DNA of 64,000 nt, taken from Spirochaetales bacterium Spiro_05. Lineage in GTDB: Bacteria > Spirochaetota > Spirochaetia > Sphaerochaetales > Sphaerochaetaceae. Both the position numbers and the translations under genes were made by a program. Positions within the stretch are counted from its first letter, which is position 1. Each line of letters opens with the position of its first letter. The notes under the pieces were generated by a model. That model did no database searches. It saw only the letters and a list, made by a program, of their open reading frames with translations, and was not told where the DNA came from. The stretch lies in contig LVBG01000023.1 in the NCBI GenBank assembly GCA_001603115.1, positions 1-64,000 on the forward strand, read 5' to 3'. Of the stretch, positions 25,672 to 37,313 are shown in pieces.

Positions 25672-25947
25672 ATGTACAAGAAAGGCATTGGACAAGCAAT
25701 CAGGGAAATACGACTTGCACAGCATATGACCCAGGAAGAGCTGATAGAAAAAGCTGACCTCTCGCGAAGTCAGCTTTACTACATAGAATCAGGGAAAACA
25801 ACCCCGCGCCTGCCGACGATTCACTCCATCTGCACAGCGCTCGGGCTCTCCTTCGTGGACTTTGTCCACTACATCTATCAATACTCGCCCGGCTCGGCCA
25901 CTCCGAGCATCTCCTCGATGGAGGCCCCCGGGGCAACCATCGGATAG
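25672..25947 (+). CDS. Small XRE-family DNA-binding protein
   Basis: 91 residues. Residues 1-65 form a single Cro/C1-type helix-turn-helix (I-R-E-I-R-L-A, M-T-Q-E-E-L, L-S-R-S-Q-L-Y-Y-I-E-S-G-K). The last 23 residues, after Y-I-Y-Q-Y, are read from DNA that is antisense to the 3' end of ilvB (overlap 25878-25947). That tail is Ser/Pro-rich and looks unconserved. The role is unknown; such small regulators often repress themselves and a neighbour. Confidence 0.7.
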   Translation: MYKKGIGQAIREIRLAQHMTQEELIEKADLSRSQLYYIESGKTTPRLPTIHSICTALGLSFVDFVHYIYQYSPGSATPSISSMEAPGATIG

Positions 25948-27560
25948 ACCTTGTCGTCGATGGGGATTTCACAGTCGATGACCACAGCCTCGCCCAGATC
26001 AAGGGCTGCCTGCAGGATCGGCTTGGGATCGTCATCGCGGCGAATCTTCATCCCCTTGATACCGAAGGCACCGGCCAAAGCAAGCCAGTCGATCGGAGTG
26101 TCGAGGGTGGTTTCGCTGTAGTGATGGTCGAAGAAGAGCGTCTGCCACTGGCGCACCATCCCCAAAGTCTGGTTGTTCATCAAGAGGATGATGATCGGGA
26201 GCTTGTAGCGAGCGATGGTGGCGAGCTCATTGCAGTTCATCCTGAACGATCCATCCCCTGCAACATTGACCACCCGGCTATTGGGATTGCCAGCCTGCGC
26301 CCCGATTGAGGCACCGGTACCATACCCCATGGTTCCTAACCCGCCACTGGTCAGAAAGTGACCAGGCTGCACATGCTTGAGGAACTGGGCGGCCCACATC
26401 TGGTGCTGACCGACCTCAGTGACAATGAAGAAACCCGGAGGAAGCACCTTCTGCAAGGCTTTGAGCACCTCTTTGGAGCGGGCGCTTTCACTGTCCACCC
26501 TGAGGGGATAGCGCTTCTTGTACTCAGCAACCTGCTCCATCCACTCCTGGTGCACCATCGGCTTGGCGATACGCTTGTTCAACTCCTCGAGCACCACCTT
26601 CAGGTCACCCACCACATGGCAGTAGGTCTTGATGTTCTTGTCAATCTCAGCAGGATCCACATCGATGTGGATGATCCTTGCATTCTTGGCAAAGGCGCTG
26701 GCCTTGCTCACCACGCGATCACTGAAACGAGCTCCGATGACCACCAACAGGTCACAGGTGGAGACACACATGTTGGAAACCTTGGTTCCGTGCATACCAA
26801 CCAAGCCGGTAAAGCGTGGTGAATATGAGTTTACAGCCCCACATCCCATCAAGGATGTGCAGGCAGGGCTGTCGATGTTCTCCAAGAAAGTTGCCAAGTC
26901 CTCAGAAGCCTTCGCCCTGATCACTCCCCCACCGACATAGCACATCGGTCGCTGGGCTTTCTTGATGAGCTCGAGGGCCACTTCCATGCTCTTCTCGCTC
27001 AGGCGCTCAGTACGGGGTTGCAGAGCCTCAGGCTTTTGCACAATGAAATCAGCGGTATGGACGGTTACGTCCTTGGGAACGTCGATCAGAACGGGTCCGG
27101 GTCTGCCTTCCTGGGCAATCTTGAAGGCAAGACGGATGGTGGGGGCGAGCTCAACGACATCCTTGACGATGAAGTTGTGCTTGGTGATCGGCATCGTGAT
27201 ACCGGTGATGTCGACTTCCTGGAAACTATCCTTTCCCAGGAGGGGAACCGCTACGTTACCGGTGAACGCAACCATGGGAACACTGTCCATGTAGGCGGTT
27301 GCGATGCCGGTAACCAGGTTGGTGGCACCCGGTCCGCTGGTGGCGATGCACACCCCGACCTTGCCGGTGCTGCGGGCGTACCCGTCAGCGGCATGGCTTG
27401 CGCCTTGCTCATGGCTGGTAAGGATGTGGCGTATCCTGTTCTGGTTCTGGTACAGCGCGTCGTACAAGGGAAGGACTGCCCCGCCGGGGAAGCCAAACAC
27501 GGTGTCAACACCTTGCTCCGCCAAACACTCTATGATGATCTGGGCTCCGGTCATCTGCAT
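25878..27560 (-). CDS. ilvB: Acetolactate synthase, large (catalytic) subunit
   Basis: 560 residues from M-Q-M-T-G-A, with AGGAG upstream. It condenses two pyruvates to acetolactate, or pyruvate with 2-ketobutyrate to acetohydroxybutyrate. G-F-P-G-G-A-V-L-P near residue 23, catalytic Glu in T-S-H-E-Q-G-A, FAD-site P-G-P-V-L-I-D-V-P-K, and the thiamine diphosphate motif G-D-G-S-F-R-M-N ... N-N-Q-T-L-G-M are all present. It is the last gene of the operon, about 9 kb from its own small subunit at the front. The 5' extension to 27674 overlaps ilvD. Confidence 0.96.
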   Translation of the reverse strand: MQMTGAQIIIECLAEQGVDTVFGFPGGAVLPLYDALYQNQNRIRHILTSHEQGASHAADGYARSTGKVGVCIATSGPGATNLVTGIATAYMDSVPMVAFTGNVAVPLLGKDSFQEVDITGITMPITKHNFIVKDVVELAPTIRLAFKIAQEGRPGPVLIDVPKDVTVHTADFIVQKPEALQPRTERLSEKSMEVALELIKKAQRPMCYVGGGVIRAKASEDLATFLENIDSPACTSLMGCGAVNSYSPRFTGLVGMHGTKVSNMCVSTCDLLVVIGARFSDRVVSKASAFAKNARIIHIDVDPAEIDKNIKTYCHVVGDLKVVLEELNKRIAKPMVHQEWMEQVAEYKKRYPLRVDSESARSKEVLKALQKVLPPGFFIVTEVGQHQMWAAQFLKHVQPGHFLTSGGLGTMGYGTGASIGAQAGNPNSRVVNVAGDGSFRMNCNELATIARYKLPIIILLMNNQTLGMVRQWQTLFFDHHYSETTLDTPIDWLALAGAFGIKGMKIRRDDDPKPILQAALDLGEAVVIDCEIPIDDKVYPMVAPGASIEEMLGVAEPGEY

Positions 27561-27577
27561 GGTAGGTACTCCTCTTC

Positions 27578-29263
27578 TTAGCTCTGAAAGACTGCTCCTG
27601 TCGCAGCACTGGTAACTTGCTTGGCATATCGGGCCAAGTACCCGGTAGTGATCTCGGGTTCTTTGCAAACCCAACCCTTCTTGCGCTGTGCCAGTGTATC
27701 TTCATCCACAAGCACTTCAAGCTTGCCTTTGGGAATATCGATCCTGATTCGGTCTCCCTCCTGGACAAAGGCAATGGGTCCGCCCTGAGCTGCCTCCGGG
27801 CTTACATGCCCGATAGAAGCTCCGCGGGTCGCCCCACTGAAGCGGCCATCGGTGATGAGGGCTACATCCTTGTCCAGGCCCATGCCTGCGATGGCACTGG
27901 TGGGACTGAGCATCTCTCGCATCCCAGGACCTCCCTTCGGCCCCTCATAGCGGATGACAATCACATCGCCAGCTTTGATCTTTCCCCCAAAAATGGCTTC
28001 AATCGTCGCTTCCTCGCTGTCGAAAACCCTGGCGGGGCCTTCATGGACAAGCATCCTCTCATCAACTGCGCTACGCTTGACCACCGCCCCATCTGGAGCA
28101 AGGTTTCCGCGAAGCACTGCGATGCCGCCGGTCACCGAGAAGGGATTGCCGATCGGGCGAATGACCTCATGGTCGTACACAACAGCCGCTTCGTAGAGCT
28201 CACCGACGGTCTTTCCGCTGACGGTGGGAAGGGTCGGGTCAAGCAGACCGCCCTTGCCCAGCTCGTGCATGACGGCCAGCACGCCGCCTGCAGCGAACAG
28301 GTCCTCTATATGGTGCTCACCGGCCGGGGCCAGATGGCAGAGATTCGGGACCTTTGCGCTGATCTCATTGGCAAGGAAGATATCCAGATCCACATGCGCC
28401 TCATGGGCAATGGCCGGCAGGTGCAGCATCGTATTGGTGCTGCAGCCCAAGGCCATATCCACCGCCAGGGCATTGGCAAAGGCTTTTTTGGTCATGATAT
28501 CCAGAGGCCTGATGTTCTGCTTCAACAGTTCCATGATCTGGTAGCCGGCCTCTTTGGCAAGGCGGTCACGAGCACTGTAGACGGCGGGAATCGTCCCGTT
28601 TCCGGGAAGTCCCATGCCGATGGCTTCGGTCAGGCAGTTCATGCTGTTGGCAGTGAACATCCCGCTGCAAGAACCGCAGGTGGGACAGGCATTGTCCTCA
28701 TACGCAAGCAGCTCCTCATCACTGAGCAAGCCGGCTGCGTGGGTGCCGACCTTCTCGAACATCACCGACAGGCTCGTCCCGCAGGCCGAGTCACCGGGAA
28801 TCTTGCCGGCAAGCATGGGCCCACCGGAGACAAAGATGGAGGGGATGTTGATCCTTGCCGCCGCCATGAGCATGCCCGGTACGATCTTGTCACAGTTGGG
28901 GACAAAGACCAAGGCGTCAAACGGATGGGCGGTAGCCATGATCTCAATCGAATCGGCAATGACTTCGCGACTTGCAAGCGAGTACTTCATACCCGTATGC
29001 CCCATGGCGATTCCGTCACACACACCGATGACCGGGAAAGAGACCGGATTTCCCCCAGCCTGCCTCACCCCTGCCTTCACCGCGTCTACGATGCGGTTGA
29101 GGTGGATGTGTCCGGGAATGATCTCATTGGCCCCATTCACGATCCCGATGATCGGCATATGGATTTCCCTATCTGTCCAGCCCAGGGCTTTCATCAGCGA
29201 GCGGTGCGGGGAGCGCTGTGCTCCCTCAGTCATCTGGCTCGAACGTCTCTTGCTTTCGTCCAT
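27578..29263 (-). CDS. ilvD: Dihydroxy-acid dehydratase
   Basis: 561 residues, family length. It dehydrates 2,3-dihydroxy acids to 2-keto acids, for valine, leucine and isoleucine. Iron-sulfur cysteines sit in [10 protein letters not shown] and [25 protein letters not shown] closes the active site. GGGGGAGG precedes the ATG. Seventeen bases separate it from both neighbours. Confidence 0.97.
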
Positions 29264-29280
29264 CCTCGTTCCTCCCCCTT

Positions 29281-30339
29281 TTACAGGGATTGGGCAATCA
29301 GGCTGCCCATCTCACTCGTACCAACCTTCTTCATACCTTCGGTATAAATGTCAGCGGTACGGTATCCTTTGTCCAACACCTTGGAAACTGCACTCTCAAT
29401 GGCATCTGCCTCAGTGGCCAAGCCGAAGCTGTAGCGAAGCATCATGGCCACCGAAAGGATGGTCGCAATGGGGTTGGCAAGATCCTTGCCCGCGATATCG
29501 GGAGCGCTGCCGTGGATCGGCTCGTACATGCCGAAGCTGTCCTCACGAAGGGATGCCGAAGGCAGCATCCCTATCGAACCGGTGATCTGGCTCGCCTCAT
29601 CGCTGAGGATGTCCCCGAACATGTTCTCGGTCACGATGACATCGAACTGGCGGGGATTGCGCACCAGCTGCATGGCAGCATTGTCCACATACAGGTGGCT
29701 CACCTGTACATTCGGATAGTCACCCTGAACACGGCCCACCACCTCACGCCAGAGCTGGCTGGTGTTGAGGATGTTCGCCTTGTCCACGCTGCAGAGGCGT
29801 CCCGAGCGCTTCTGGGCGATCTCAAAGGCCTTGCGCACGATCCGCTCGATCTCCCCGACCGTATAGGCCATGGTGTCATAGGCACTGTTCTCGTCCCTTC
29901 CCCGCTCGCCGAAGTAGATGCCTCCGGTAAGCTCGCGCACCACCATCAGGTCCAACCCTTCCCCGACGATTTCCTTCTTCAGGGGGCATGCATCGGCAAG
30001 TTGCTTGTACAGGATTGCCGGGCGGAGGTTGCAAAAGAGACCCATGCCGCCACGCAGCCCAAGCAGGGCCTTCTCAGGTCGGAGATGACTGGGCAAGGTG
30101 TCCCACTTAGGACCTCCCACCGCACCGAGCAGTACGCTGTCACTCTCCTGGCAACCTTTGAGGGTCTCTTCAGGAAGAGGGATCCCCGTATGGTCGAGGG
30201 CAATGCCCCCGGCCTCATACTCACTGGTGGTGAAGGTGTGGGCAAACTTGGCCCCCACAGCAGAGAGGACTTTCAGAGCCTCCCTGATGATATCGGGACC
30301 GATGCCGTCTCCGCTGACCACTGCAATATGTTTCTTCAT
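29281..30339 (-). CDS. leuB: 3-isopropylmalate dehydrogenase
   Basis: 352 residues. NAD-dependent oxidative decarboxylase of the isocitrate/isopropylmalate family, with G-D-G-I-G-P-D near the start, [10 protein letters not shown], and the substrate/metal site including [11 protein letters not shown] and [10 protein letters not shown]. Its ATG overlaps the end of leuD by four bases. With CimA in the operon it probably also oxidises methylmalate, as in other citramalate pathways (inference). Confidence 0.96.
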
Positions 30340-30833
30340 GCCTGTTGCCCCCTTTTGGCGATGTAACCGGCAAGCCCGCCGCTGGAGATCAGGTCCTGCA
30401 TGAAGGGCGGGAAAGGTTCGCTGTGGAAGACTTTCTTGGTGGTCTCATTGGTGATGGTACCGGTGGAAAAATCAACACTGACCACATCCCCTGCCTTGAT
30501 CCCGTCGCAGGCCTCAGGGCACTCGAGTATCGGAAGGCCGATGTTGATCGCATTGCGATAGAAGATGCGAGCATAGGTGCGTGCAATGACACACGAAATG
30601 CCGCTCTCCTTGATGGCAATCGGGGCATGCTCACGGCTCGAGCCGCAGCCGAAGTTCCGGTCAGCCACCATGATGTCGCCCTTCTTCACCTGCTTGATGA
30701 AGTTCTGGTCGATATCCTCCATGCAGTGCTGGGCAAGCTCCTTATGGTTGGAGGTGTTGAGATACCGTGCCGGGATGATGACGTCGGTATCGACGTTGTC
30801 GCCATATCTGAAAACTGTTCCTCTTGCTTGCAT
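30336..30833 (-). CDS. leuD: 3-isopropylmalate dehydratase, small subunit
   Basis: 165 residues from M-Q-A-R-G, with GAGGAGG upstream. The aconitase-like swivel domain has D-x-I-I-P-A-R-Y-L and the substrate loop [12 protein letters not shown]. It is the short archaeal/anaerobe-type LeuD. It pairs with LeuC to isomerise 2- to 3-isopropylmalate. One base separates its start from the leuC stop. Confidence 0.95.
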
Positions 30834-30834
30834 C

Positions 30835-32103
30835 CTATACCTCCTCAACCTTGTTCGGGTCAGCGATGTACCCGGCCACTGCACTGGCTGCCGCTACTGC
30901 AGGACTTGCCAGATACACCTCGCTCTTTACATGACCCATGCGCCCGACGAAGTTTCGGTTGGTCGTACTTACCGCACGCTCTCCCTCCGCCAGGATTCCC
31001 ATATGACCACCGAGGCAAGGCCCGCACGTGGGAGTGGAAACAGCACATCCGCTGTCCACAAAGATATCAAACAGACCCTCATGCATCGCCTGCTTCCAGA
31101 TTTCCTGGGTGGCGGGGAAAATGAGAGCCCGTACGTGCTTGGCAACCTTGCGTCCCTTCAGGATTGCAGCAGCCTGCCTGAGGTCACTGATGTGTCCGTT
31201 GGTGCAGGATCCGATGACCACCTGGTCGATCCTCACCTCGCCCACCTCATCGATGGTGCGGGTGTTGGAAGGAAGATGGGGGAAACTGACGGTACTCTTG
31301 ATCTTCGAAAGATCGATATCGATTACCCGTTCATACTCGGCATCAGGATCGGCTTCATAGATCACCGGTTCCTTGGGGCAGTGCTCTTTCAGGTACGCAA
31401 GGGCAACCTCATCCACCGGGAAGATCCCATTCTTCGCACCGGCCTCAATGGCCATGTTGGCCACGGTGAAGCGGTCGTCGATATTCATGTTTGCCACCCC
31501 TTCCCCGACGAACTCCATGCTCTGGTAGAGCGCCCCATCGACACCGATCATGCCGATGATGTGGAGGATCAGGTCCTTGCCGCACACATAGGGGGCAAAG
31601 GAGCCGGTCAGGTTGAACTTGATGGCCGAAGGTACCTTGAACCAAGCCTGGCCGGTGGCCATGCCACAAGCCATGTCGGTTGAACCGACACCGGTGGAGA
31701 ATGCACCGAGCGCTCCATAGGTACAGGTGTGGCTGTCTGCACCGATGACCAGGTCCCCGGCGCCCACCAGACCCTTCTCAGGGAGCAGGGCGTGTTCGAT
31801 GCCCATCTGTCCCACATCAAAGTAGTTGGTGATGTCGTGCTCCCCTGCAAAGGTTCTCAGGCACTTGCACTGCTCGGCCGCTTTGATATCCTTGTTGGGA
31901 CTGAAATGGTCAGGAACGAGGGCAACCTTGTCCTTGTCGAAAACCGTCTTCTTCCCAAACTTGGGAAACTCATTGATGGCCACCGGAGCGGTGATATCGT
32001 TGCCCAGCACCATATCAAGGTCAGCCATGATCAACTGCCCGGCTCGTACCGAAGGCAGATTGGCATGGTGTGCCAGGATCTTCTGTGTCATTGTCATACC
32101 CAT
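30835..32103 (-). CDS. leuC: 3-isopropylmalate dehydratase, large subunit
   Basis: 422 residues from the ATG at 32103, after AAGGAG. Aconitase-superfamily catalytic subunit with 4Fe-4S ligands in I-G-S-C-T-N-G-H and [10 protein letters not shown], and D-S-H-T-C-T-Y-G. The length of about 420 residues matches the HACN-type LeuC that goes with a short LeuD, not the 465-residue enterobacterial form. Such enzymes often accept citramalate too. Confidence 0.95.
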
Positions 32104-32116
32104 GGGGGACTTCTCC

Positions 32117-33715
32117 TTACACTTCTTCGTCCGAGGGTTCAATACCATCGGCGATTAATTTGTACTCTATACTATCACTGAGGGCATACCAGCTCGCCTC
32201 GATGATATCCTTGCTCACCCCGATCGTCGACCAGCTGTTGCTTCCGTCGGTCGATTCGATCAGAACCCTGACCTTCGAAGCGGTAGCGCCTGCTGAGTCG
32301 AGCACCCGCACCTTGTAGTCGGTGAGATGCACGCTCTTGAGCGTCGGGTAGAACTGTTCCAATACTTTTCTCAACGCCCTGTCCAGCGCGTTGACCGGAC
32401 CTTCTCCCTCAGCGGCGGTGATGGCACTCTCTCCATTCACCTTCACTTTGACCACCGCGGCATGGGTGGCATCAGAGAGCGGATCGGCATAGGGGCTGCT
32501 TCCGATCGTCTGATAATGCACCAGCTGGAAGTACGGGCGATACATCTTCAGGTGGCGGCGAATGACCAGGTCGAAGGAGCTTTCAGCCCCCTCAAACTGG
32601 TAACCTTCCGCCTCAAGACGCTTCAGCTCATCCATCAAGGAGACCGTAACCGGGTCGTCCTTGTCAAGATTCGGTGCAACGCGTGCAATACGCTTGAGCA
32701 TCAGGGCACGGCCGGCGACCTCGCTCATCAAGAGCCTGCGCTCATTGCCCACCACCATCGGGTCGACGTGCTCAAAGGAGAGCGGATTCTTCTGCACCCC
32801 GTCGATATGCATCCCACCCTTATGGGCAAAGGCACTCTTGCCGATGAAAGGGGCTGATCGGGGAATGCGGACGTTGGCAACCTCTGCAACAGCTCGGCAG
32901 ATCTCGGTCAGCTGCTCCAAGCTCTCGCCACTGAGGCAGTCACAACCAAGCTTGGTTCCCAGAATTGCTGCAATGGTGGAAAGATTTGCATTTCCGCAGC
33001 GTTCGCCGAAGCCAAGCAGTGTTCCCTGCACCTGTACCGCACCTGCTTCAACAGCGGCAAGCGAGGAGGCTACCCCACAGCCGATATCATCATGGGCATG
33101 CACCCCGATGGGTATAGCTGGAAAAGCCTTCATCGTTTCAGAAGTTATGCGGCCCACTTCACTGGGGATCAGTCCCCCACGGGTTTCGCACAGCACCAAT
33201 GTTGAAGCCCCTCCCCTCAGCGCTGCTTTCAGGGTCTCCATGGCATAGGAGGGATTGGCGAGATAGCCATCATAGTAGTGTTCGGCATCGAAGAAGACTT
33301 CACTGCCGCTTTCGACGATGAAGCGGACACTGTCCTCGATCATCGCAAGATTCTCCTCAAGCGTGGTACGGATGATGTCCGTAACATGAAAGTCCCAGCT
33401 TTTGCCGAAGATGGAGACGACTGGAGCTTGTGCAGTCACCAGACTCCTAAGGTTCGGGTCCTCGGAAGCAAGGATCTGTTTTCGGCGCGTCGAACCGAAA
33501 CTGACGAGCTTGGCATGCTTGAGCTCAAGATTCCTTGCCCTGGCGAAAAATTCCAGGTCCTTCGGATTTGAGCCGGGATTCCCCGCCTCGATGTAGGCAA
33601 TGCCCAGCTGGTCGAGTGCTTTGACAATCTTCAGCTTGTCTTCCACCGAGAAGCTGATTCCCTCTCCTTGGCTGCCATCGCGCAGGGTGGAGTCGAATAG
33701 TGCAACTTTATGCAT
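32117..33715 (-). CDS. cimA: Citramalate synthase
   Basis: 532 residues. DRE-TIM metallolyase: [12 protein letters not shown] at residues 8-19 and metal H-A-H-D-D, G-N-A-N-L-S later, then a LeuA-type allosteric dimer domain. The S-Q-G-E-G signature and length fit the GSU1798-type citramalate synthases, which join pyruvate and acetyl-CoA to start threonine-independent isoleucine synthesis. No threonine deaminase is in the window. Its ATG overlaps the end of leuA by eight bases. Some members are annotated as 2-isopropylmalate synthase, so assay would decide. Confidence 0.88.
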
Positions 33716-35321
33716 CAGAACCCTCCTTTTGCTTGTCGGAATGGGAACTGAGCATGTCGTTGGCAAAGTTCGGAGGAGTGGTGGGCTTGAGGTTGCCAGT
33801 AGCATGCACAGCCGTCTCATCAAGCATCCGGTTCACTGCGGCAAGACAGGAAAGAATGGAGGCCTCGATGACGTCGGTGCTCACACCCCTGCCGCGATAG
33901 ATGCCATGCCCGTCGCTGATCTTCACGAAGACTTCACCCAAGGCATCACGGTGTTCGGTGACTGCCTGCAGATTGTACTCTTCCAGACTGAAGGGGTGAC
34001 GGATGATCTTCTCCACCGCCCTGAGGGAGGCATAGACAGGACCGGTGCCACAGGCAACTTCCTGATACTTCTTCTCTCCCTTCTTCAGGGTCACGCAGGC
34101 GGTGCTGGTCATCAGGTTTCCGCTGTTGACCACGAACGAATCCAGCTCCCAGATGACCGGGCTGCTCTGGCTTGCGTTCTCGACCAAGGCGATGAGATCA
34201 CGGTCGGTGATGGTCTTCTTGCGGTCGGCAAGATTCTTGAACTCAGAAAAGAGCGCTTTCGCCTCATCCTTGCCCAAGGTATACCCAAGGTCGGCAAGCC
34301 GCTTCTCGAATGCATGCTGGCCGCTGTGCTTGCCCAAGATGAGACTGGTATTCATCACCCCGACACTCTCGGGTGTCATGATCTCATAGGTAAGGCTGTT
34401 GGCCATCATGCCGTGCTGGTGGATGCCGCTTTCGTGGGCAAAAGCATTTGCCCCGACGATGGCCTTCGAAGGATTGGGTTTGACACCGGTGATCTGGGTG
34501 AGCAGACGGCTGGAGCGGATGATCTCCTCGGTCTTGATGTTGTGGGTGAACGGATAGGCATCGCTTCGTGTCCTGATGTTCATCACCAGCTCTTCCATGG
34601 CGGCATTGCCGGCGCGCTCTCCGATCCCGCAGAGGGTGCACTCTGCCTGCCGTGCTCCGGCCTTCAGGCCTGCAAGGCTGTTGGCGACTGCCAGGCCAAG
34701 GTCATTGTGGCAGTGTACCGCGATGACGGCCTTGTCCACATTGGGGACCCGCTGCATGACGGAACTGACCATTCTGGTCATATCCTCGGGGGTGGAGTAC
34801 CCCACCGTATCGGGGAGATTGACTGTCGAAGCTCCTGCCTTGATGACCGCCTCAACCACCTGGCACAGGTAGTCGAGATCGGTACGGGTGGCATCCTCCA
34901 GGGAGAACTCCACATCGTCATTGAGATTGCGGGCATAGGCAACCATCGCGACCGCCTTTTGGAGGGCTTGCTCGCGGCTCATCTTCAGCTTGTACTGCAG
35001 ATGCAGGTCGCTGGTTGCCAGAAAGGTGTGGATGCGAGGCCGTTTGGCAAGCCGTACAGCCTCCCAAGCGGCATCGATATCCTTTTCCAAGGCACGGGAG
35101 AGGGAGGCGACAACCGTCTCCTTCAACTCCTTGCTGATAGCCTGCACACTGGCGAAATCGCCGGGGGACGCTATGGCAAACCCCGCTTCCAGGATATCCA
35201 CCCCTAGGGCTTCAAGCTGTAGGGCCATGCGGATTTTCTCATCCAGGTTCATGCTGTAGCCAGGTGCTTGTTCGCCGTCTCTGAGGGTGGTATCGAAGAT
35301 GTAGATTCGTTCTTTTTCCAT
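33708..35321 (-). CDS. leuA: 2-isopropylmalate synthase
   Basis: 537 residues. Motif D-T-T-L-R-D-G-E-Q-A-P-G at residues 10-21, metal site H-C-H-N-D-L-G, G-I-G-E-R-A-G-N-A, and S-G-I-H-Q-H-G at the domain junction. It condenses 2-ketoisovalerate with acetyl-CoA, the first leucine-specific step. The C-terminal regulatory domain is present, so leucine feedback is expected. AAGGA precedes the ATG. Confidence 0.95.
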   Translation of the reverse strand: MEKERIYIFDTTLRDGEQAPGYSMNLDEKIRMALQLEALGVDILEAGFAIASPGDFASVQAISKELKETVVASLSRALEKDIDAAWEAVRLAKRPRIHTFLATSDLHLQYKLKMSREQALQKAVAMVAYARNLNDDVEFSLEDATRTDLDYLCQVVEAVIKAGASTVNLPDTVGYSTPEDMTRMVSSVMQRVPNVDKAVIAVHCHNDLGLAVANSLAGLKAGARQAECTLCGIGERAGNAAMEELVMNIRTRSDAYPFTHNIKTEEIIRSSRLLTQITGVKPNPSKAIVGANAFAHESGIHQHGMMANSLTYEIMTPESVGVMNTSLILGKHSGQHAFEKRLADLGYTLGKDEAKALFSEFKNLADRKKTITDRDLIALVENASQSSPVIWELDSFVVNSGNLMTSTACVTLKKGEKKYQEVACGTGPVYASLRAVEKIIRHPFSLEEYNLQAVTEHRDALGEVFVKISDGHGIYRGRGVSTDVIEASILSCLAAVNRMLDETAVHATGNLKPTTPPNFANDMLSSHSDKQKEGSDA

Positions 35322-35353
35322 AGTGTCCTTCCCGGTGGTTCGTAGTGTGTACG

Positions 35354-36376
<1,023 letters not shown>

Positions 36377-36405
36377 TTATCTAAAGCGCCACATGGGCGT
36401 TGTGT

Positions 36406-36936
36406 TCACTCTTCATCCTCACTGTAGGAGATCGAGCTCAGTGCTCTGGATCCGCGCTCAAGGGCGGTGATACCGGTTCTGGCCATCTCAACGACGCCAT
36501 AGGGCAGCATCAGGTCCAAGAATGATTGGATCTTATCGAGGCTTCCTGTCATCTCCAAGGTTACGGTTGAGGCGGTGACGTCGATGATCTTGGCCTTGAA
36601 AATCTGGGCAAGCTCAACCACTTCACTGCGGGTGTCACTCTTGGTGGAAACCTTCACCATGACCAGTTCACGCTGGAGGCTCCTCGTCTGGGTCATCTCA
36701 TAGACGCGCTTGACGTCGATGAGCTTGCTCACCTGTTTCTTGATCTGCTCGACAACAGGACGGTCGCCGCTGACCACGATGGTGATGCGGCTGACATCAA
36801 AACGCTCGGTCTCCCCTACTGAGAGACTGTCGATGTTGTATCCTCGTCTGCTGAAGAGGGACACAACGCGCATCAGGACGCCTGGGTGGTTGTTGACCAG
36901 GATGGCCAAGGTGTAACGGTTTTCGGTGGTATTCAT
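36406..36936 (-). CDS. ilvN: Acetolactate synthase, small (regulatory) subunit
   Basis: 176 residues from M-N-T-T-E-N. ACT domain (Y-T-L-A-I-L-V-N-N-H-P-G-V-L-M-R-V, F-S-R-R-G-Y-N-I-D-S-L) that binds valine and feeds back on IlvB, then the C-terminal activator domain. First structural gene of the operon. AAGGAG lies 11 bases before the ATG, and a pyrimidine tract in the leader could pair with it. The frame's upstream extension to 37164 is in the leader, not protein. Confidence 0.95.
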   Translation of the reverse strand: MNTTENRYTLAILVNNHPGVLMRVVSLFSRRGYNIDSLSVGETERFDVSRITIVVSGDRPVVEQIKKQVSKLIDVKRVYEMTQTRSLQRELVMVKVSTKSDTRSEVVELAQIFKAKIIDVTASTVTLEMTGSLDKIQSFLDLMLPYGVVEMARTGITALERGSRALSSISYSEDEE

Positions 36937-36977
36937 ATCGTGTATCTCTCCTTCGTACGATTTGGGTATAAGCTGAT

Positions 36978-37037
36978 GCTCCCCAGAGTGTTCGGGGGCT
37001 GTCTTCCACGGTCCATGCAGGGGTGCTGCAGCCGTGG
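36978..37037 (-). promoter_or_regulatory. Leader hairpins of the branched-chain operon
   Basis: On the minus-strand RNA a CCACGG/CCGTGG hairpin (37006-37037, with an inner GCAG/CTGC pair) begins directly after the leader-peptide stop. A second CCCC/GGGG hairpin follows (36978-37000). Neither is followed by a U run, so classical intrinsic termination is not evident. This lies in the 470-base leader between the promoter and ilvN. Confidence 0.6.
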
Positions 37038-37187
37038 TCAGAGAATAATTAGGCTTACTACGATGTTGAGGAGGAGGGGGAGGAGAAGAAGGGGGAGGAG
37101 AAGAAGGGTGCGTCCAAGAAGGAAGGAAAGCGAAGCAAAAGAGTTGCTGCATGCGCGGTTGCAAGACTGCTCAGAGTCCTGAATCAT
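37038..37187 (-). CDS. Leu/Ile/Val-rich leader peptide of the ilv-leu operon
   Basis: A 49-codon frame with AAGGA five bases before its ATG. Of its last 27 residues 20 are branched-chain: 15 Leu, 3 Ile and 2 Val, including two L-L-L-L-P units. It ends 100 bases before ilvN. This is the layout of an attenuation leader peptide whose translation speed reports charged tRNA levels. An alternative GTG start at 37244, with GGAGAG upstream, would lengthen it to 68 residues. The coding claim is inferred from position and composition. Confidence 0.75.
   Translation of the reverse strand: MIQDSEQSCNRACSNSFASLSFLLGRTLLLLPLLLLPLLLNIVVSLIIL
37076..37105 (-). repeat. Perfect 15-bp tandem repeat (two copies) in the leader peptide
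   Basis: Plus-strand unit GGGGGAGGAGAAGAA at 37076-37090 and 37091-37105. On the coding strand each unit gives a run of CTT/CTC Leu codons and one Pro codon. In-frame expansion or loss would change the Leu codon count without a frameshift. Confidence 0.85.
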
Positions 37188-37283
37188 CCATTTCCTTGTA
37201 CTGGTTGGGTGCTGATACTGCACCTGCTTGGTGAACGCGTTCACGATGCTCTCCTCGATGAACGGCGTGTGTGCCGTTTCTTG

Positions 37284-37313
37284 TTTGTAGCGCTCTTTAG
37301 GGAACTGTGTCAA
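37284..37313 (-). promoter_or_regulatory. Promoter of the branched-chain amino acid operon
   Basis: Minus strand: TTGACA (37308-37313), 18-base spacer, TACAAA (37284-37289). An AACGGC/GCCGTT hairpin (37261-37278) lies at the expected RNA 5' end. Confidence 0.65.

Follow-up and report, generated by a model that had tools for sequence, protein, structure and literature searches.

A branched-chain amino acid leader upstream of the ilv-leu operon in the Sphaerochaetaceae, and its terminator-less version in Sphaerochaeta

What might a short, leucine-rich reading frame do upstream of a branched-chain amino acid operon when the hairpins behind it lack the U-run of an ordinary terminator? The question is raised by the window (the whole 64,000-nucleotide stretch of DNA analysed), whose minus strand carries a complete nine-gene ilv-leu operon in the order ilvN-ilvC-leuA-cimA-leuC-leuD-leuB-ilvD-ilvB (NCBIfam). 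The gene for the small subunit of acetolactate synthase, ilvN, comes first (36406–36936), and the remainder, from ilvC to ilvB, occupies 25878–36346; the two subunits of the enzyme are thereby encoded at opposite ends of the operon (25878–36936), ilvN first and ilvB last. All features described below lie on the minus strand. The leader itself, its composition and codon bias, the hairpins and the states of the U-run are established here by comparison among relatives, and what we say of the function of the leader is read from sequence. The leader appears to be a branched-chain amino acid leader of a known type; what would be new is the family-wide series to which it belongs and the terminator-less version found in Sphaerochaeta.

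The leader frame and its promoter

The earlier note on this DNA described a 49-codon frame with an ATG start, with Leu, Ile or Val at 20 of its last 27 positions. The frame exists (37038–37187), and a recount from the ATG at 37187 to the TGA at 37038 gives exactly 20. Dinucleotide shuffles of the same stretch contain on average 7.5 such codons, with none of 2000 reaching 20, and the count is specific to the frame, the other two frames holding 2 and 0. The proposed start is probably not the true one: the ATG is missing from several relatives (for example, L005 and L007). The leader probably begins instead at a GTG at 37244, with a GAGGAG Shine–Dalgarno sequence (37251–37256) 6 nt upstream, giving a peptide of 68 residues (37038–37244) that ends in NIVVSLIIL and of which the 49-codon frame is the C-terminal part. 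Within the genus this start signal is kept as GAGGAG or a near variant followed, after ~6 nt, by GTG or TTG, and the stop and the branched-chain amino acid content are conserved as well. The window thus has what a ribosome-mediated attenuator calls for, an upstream frame that looks translated and holds control codons for the end products of the operon behind it.

Upstream of the frame, the −35 hexamer TTGACA (37308–37313), which had been noted before, is present in 18 of 18 distinct genus sequences. It is followed after an 18-nt spacer by a probable −10 element, TACAAA (37284–37289), a weak match to consensus that recurs as an ACAAAC-type motif in most genus members; a stricter σ70 promoter scan did not list the pair because it demands T as the final base of the −10 element. 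Immediately 5′ of the leader Shine–Dalgarno sequence is a hairpin, AACGGC..GCCGTT (37261–37278), whose arms, by inspection, co-vary in relatives (ACGGC:GCCGT, ACAGC:GCTGT, ACGGT:ACCGT and CCTGC:GCAGG). A further hairpin lies within the leader frame (GGTGC..GCACC, 37208–37224), of which the window's clade retains GGTG..CACC. The leader start codon is part of an inverted repeat without mismatch, GTGAACGCGTTCAC, at 37231–37244, which is kept in the nearest relatives only.

Leader and hairpins across the Sphaerochaetaceae

The gene ilvN was found in 23 of 26 genomes of the window's genus, Sphaerochaeta (group g1; named loci, from Sphaerochaeta halotolerans and Sphaerochaeta sp. S2, assign the window to it), and in 94 of 139 genomes of the family; at 90 loci the DNA ahead of the gene was inspected. 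At 89 of the 90 loci a frame rich in branched-chain amino acids precedes ilvN and ends beside a CCACGG-type hairpin. The encoded peptides range from 17 to 76 residues, and their lengths and sequences diverge while their composition stays alike. The check that the earlier note had proposed, whether relatives have a Leu-rich frame ahead of ilvN, was run and passed, and its interpretation of the frame as an attenuation leader gains support from the frame and the conserved hairpin together. Retention of the leader by nearly all relatives argues that it very probably serves as a sensor of branched-chain amino acid shortage. One ilvN locus, L133 (genome G085), is without a leader and has ilvN close behind a TTGACA-type promoter. 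A covariance model covering the leader end and hairpin 1 scores in 90 of 138 genomes, with essentially a single match in each and that match usually at ilvN; because the model was built from many of the same sequences, its value lies in the few misses and in the absence of second copies. No convincing second copy at another operon was found by this model in the 138 genomes, G045 giving one weak second match.

The choice of codons sets the leaders apart from the genes that follow. Leu codons ending in G make up 13 of 209 in the genus leaders versus 122 of 243 in the operon genes of the window, CTA makes up 41 of 209 versus 2 of 243, and ATT accounts for 77 of 113 Ile codons in the leaders versus 28 of 199 in the operon genes. 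The leaders, in other words, shun CTG and TTG and make use of the otherwise rare CTA, with a p value that is to be taken as indicative because the pooled leaders are related to one another and the background comes from one genome. In the leu attenuator of S. typhimurium the control codon is CUA, and theory predicts that CUA is the most sensitive (PMC1183508).

Two hairpins follow the frame in the window. Hairpin 1, CCACGG..CCGTGG (37006–37037), begins directly after the stop codon, and in g1 both partners vary at each of the five pairs of its inner stem, giving a covariation score reached by none of 500 shuffles. Hairpin 2, GCCCCC..GGGGAGC (36978–36999), sits at the former terminator position without a U-run. 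It was judged row by row across the genus because the MAFFT alignment is unreliable there, and its helix is kept in relatives with changed sequence. On the 3′ side of hairpin 2 alignment reveals an element, GCTTATACCC (36964–36973), that is conserved in the window's clade; a TATA(C/T)CC motif at the same site is kept more widely, in g1 and g13. A closing helix of 8 pairs and one bulge, formed by leader codons, GTAGTAAGC, with a segment behind hairpin 2, GCTTATAC, was considered and rejected: covariation is absent, and the helix is stronger in rows without a U-run, yet shuffles reach it at p ~0.07–0.3.

The arrangement of these segments differs among the groups of the family. In the gut relatives g2 and g11 the stop codon is followed by segment 1 (CCACGG), an invariant segment 2 (CCCGTGG), and a segment 3 with a U-run. 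The pairings 1:2 and 2:3 exclude each other, so that terminator and antiterminator form a textbook three-segment switch. The 1:2 helix shows no covariation in g2 and g11, since segment 2 does not vary. A segment that has to pair with both partners would be expected to behave in this way; the invariance is consistent with the switch and is not proof of it. Groups g6, g16, g17, g19, and g20, to which g12 probably belongs, oppose 1:2 to 2:3 with a covarying outer extension (reached by 0–1 of 500 shuffles) and have no U-run behind it. Finally, g1 (the window included), g13, and g14 have two separate hairpins, 1 and 2. These are compatible rather than mutually exclusive in the window's clade, and no alternative structure that would exclude hairpin 2 was found in that clade.

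Probable loss of the U-run and possible outputs in Sphaerochaeta

That the hairpins lack a U-run, as the earlier note had stated, holds for the window and its clade: hairpin 2 has none behind it, unlike the terminators of g2 and g11 and the tails of rows L020–L023. U-rich tails do occur in the outgroup loci L134 (g14) and L140 (g13) and, within g1, in rows L020–L023, L022 and L023 having TTTTTT. The ilvN tree places L020/L021, then L022/L023, as the outer branches of g1; all other g1 rows, the window included, group in a single clade of modest support (82/85), and every row of that clade lacks the U-run. Because two early-branching Sphaerochaeta lineages have U-rich tails, the U-run was probably lost, and the simplest reading would be a single loss in the window's g1 clade. 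Leaders are longer in the g1 clade without a U-run (55–74 versus 35–39 residues), and over the whole set leader length and U-richness correlate with a Spearman coefficient of −0.56, the lineages being non-independent points. In L020–L023, the g1 rows with U-rich tails, an obvious antiterminator was not seen. The decay of the terminator signal in the window's lineage suggests that the mode of action there is probably not the textbook one. The earlier suggestion that the mechanism may not be the enterobacterial one is upheld for this clade, with the correction that hairpins 1 and 2 are also compatible.

Taken together, these comparisons point to a model, which we consider likely, in which the locus is a ribosome-mediated branched-chain amino acid attenuator with a changed output, perhaps Rho-dependent termination or translation. 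The leader peptide attenuator would sense charged Leu, Ile and Val tRNA. When these amino acids are short, the ribosome would stall in the Leu-rich tract of the 68-residue leader; when they are plentiful, it would reach the stop codon and, because the stop codon abuts hairpin 1, keep hairpin 1 open. The position of the ribosome would in this way set the expression of the nine-gene ilv-leu operon, and both the stalling and the regulation by the leader are, in our judgement, highly probable. A stall at any of the final four codons (LIIL) would lie too near hairpin 1 to leave the hairpin free. In the gut relatives g2 and g11 the decision would fall to the intrinsic terminator (2:3 with its U-run), which hairpin 1 (1:2) would exclude: a terminating ribosome would mask segment 1 and let the terminator form, and a stalled ribosome would let 1:2 form. 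The window's clade retains hairpin 1 and the leader that would act as sensor; the terminator's U-run is gone, and so is the mutual exclusion.

Three outputs can be envisaged for this clade, and we place Rho-dependent premature termination first, as a guess held with low confidence. Rho would stop transcription early from the C-rich, G-poor tract of Leu codons in the leader, a candidate rut-like region (37067–37146), unless a stalled ribosome covers it. The excess of C over G in this tract is 34, the highest of any 80-nt segment of the minus strand, and Rho was found in 26 of 26 genus genomes (Pfam Rho). G in the leader tract is below synonymous expectation (p ~0.001 in most rows). However, this depletion extends to rows with U-rich tails, and C is not enriched in the tract beyond what peptide and codon usage predict; the Rho step thus rests on composition. 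The presence of Rho and the makeup of the tract would be permissive of such an output, not specific to it.

Hairpin 2 might instead still terminate transcription without a U-run, as an intrinsic attenuator perhaps helped by NusA or NusG. That its helix persists where the terminator formerly lay, though the sequence has changed, would fit such a role, as would the conserved element that follows, but the tail, AUCAGCUUAUACCC, is poor in U. Moreover, ordinary U-tailed hairpins occur elsewhere in the window, including one behind the operon (behind ilvB, near 25755), and the organism therefore appears to use standard terminators; and since hairpins 1 and 2 are not mutually exclusive, there is no visible switch. 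We regard this alternative as unlikely. Control at the level of translation is doubtful. Here the Leu-codon tract, CTTCTTCTCC, would pair with the ilvN Shine–Dalgarno region, GAAGGAGAG (36946–36954), and a stalled ribosome would free it. Between this region and the leader frame, L001 has a nearly complete predicted pairing and several relatives a strong one, and there is a precedent in the base stem proposed for the actinobacterial LEU element (PMC1262725). However, synonymously recoded leaders pair about equally well, their percentiles spreading between 0.02 and 1.0, so that the pairing follows from composition with no sign of selection, and in L001 the Shine–Dalgarno region is predicted to stay paired at any tested ribosome position.

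A leader with no regulatory role, whether a remnant or simply a small protein, would fit the decayed terminator and the hydrophobic peptide of the window's clade. Yet the genus preserves the frame, Shine–Dalgarno sequence, stop codon and branched-chain amino acid content despite divergence of the peptide sequence, the biased codons are retained, hairpin 1 covaries, and a small membrane protein has no need of rare CTA or ATT codons, all of which makes this very improbable. A T-box or riboswitch, which the long 5′ leader ahead of an amino acid operon might bring to mind, is the least credible explanation, given that neither a T-box (as the earlier note had observed) nor any other known regulatory RNA is found in the window at the Rfam gathering threshold and that a relaxed threshold (E up to 5) yields implausible matches alone for the leader.

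A single family here spans the whole range from a textbook switch to a terminator-less form, the operon and the putative sensor being the same throughout. If the attenuator model with a changed output is confirmed, it becomes possible to test how an attenuator that works through the ribosome could do without its terminator and yet stay useful, and the ilv-leu operon of Sphaerochaeta would gain a regulatory annotation. It is possible, if speculative, that the output was rewired from the intrinsic terminator of the gut genera to a terminator-free state in Sphaerochaeta in which the Leu tract is a Rho loading site shielded by a starved ribosome.

Relation to known systems and other spirochaetes

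Proteobacteria and actinobacteria are well known to have leader attenuators for branched-chain amino acids. The enterobacterial leu and ilv attenuators combine a four-segment structure with a terminator U-run. In the tna operon of Escherichia coli, the position of the ribosome on the leader peptide governs the access of Rho, and the signal is free Trp, sensed via nascent-peptide arrest and not via codon starvation. The window's leader would resemble tna in making Rho access depend on ribosome position, Rho being a guess here, but would respond to codon starvation rather than to Trp arrest. Rho has also been invoked for terminator-less cys leaders (PMC1262725). With the enterobacterial attenuators the leader shares a run of control codons and the rare CUA (PMC1183508), whereas the four segments and the terminator U-run are not seen here.

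In Mycobacterium tuberculosis ilvB1NC, the anti-terminator is hidden by a ribosome that has reached the stop codon and forms when the ribosome is stalled at LVVI (PMC13236596). The likeness lies in a frame rich in branched-chain amino acids before an ilv operon and in a logic that is the same as that of g2 and g11. However, ilvB1NC has an intrinsic terminator with a U-tract, and the window's clade has neither a U-run nor mutually exclusive hairpins; the window's leader, at 68 residues, is also much richer in Leu. In the actinobacterial LEU element, found at leuA, successive Leu codons in the leader frame could pair with a downstream Shine–Dalgarno sequence, no obvious terminator is present, and a conserved pseudoknot has been reported (PMC1262725). 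The window's clade shares the row of Leu codons and the lack of an obvious terminator; its pairing with the Shine–Dalgarno region is a predicted one, no better than that of recoded leaders.

No earlier description of attenuation in Sphaerochaeta was found in the open literature searched, in which a Leptospira candidate is the sole branched-chain amino acid leader attenuator from a spirochaete. The Leptospira ilvB motif (PMC10272879) and the ilvB-OMG motif (PMC8632094) each have a frame rich in branched-chain amino acids before ilvB, with attenuation proposed as a putative mechanism. They resemble the window's leader in having such a frame before an ilv gene, one of them in another spirochaete genus, and differ in the gene (ilvB) and apparently in sequence; the window's leader gave no match to any Rfam family. 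Frames rich in branched-chain amino acids also stand before ilv genes on two contigs of more distant spirochaetes, with ordinary terminators, a picture that the Leptospira candidates (PMC10272879) fit. On one of the two (L040, 3016–3230), such a frame and a U-tailed hairpin precede ilvB. On the other, from spirochaete HyVt-370 (L045, 1219–1400), a leader of this composition precedes ilvD and is followed by a three-segment switch: behind the stop codon come CAGCG, AACCCGCUG, CAGCGGGUU, and U8, so that the three-segment logic is repeated with unrelated sequence.
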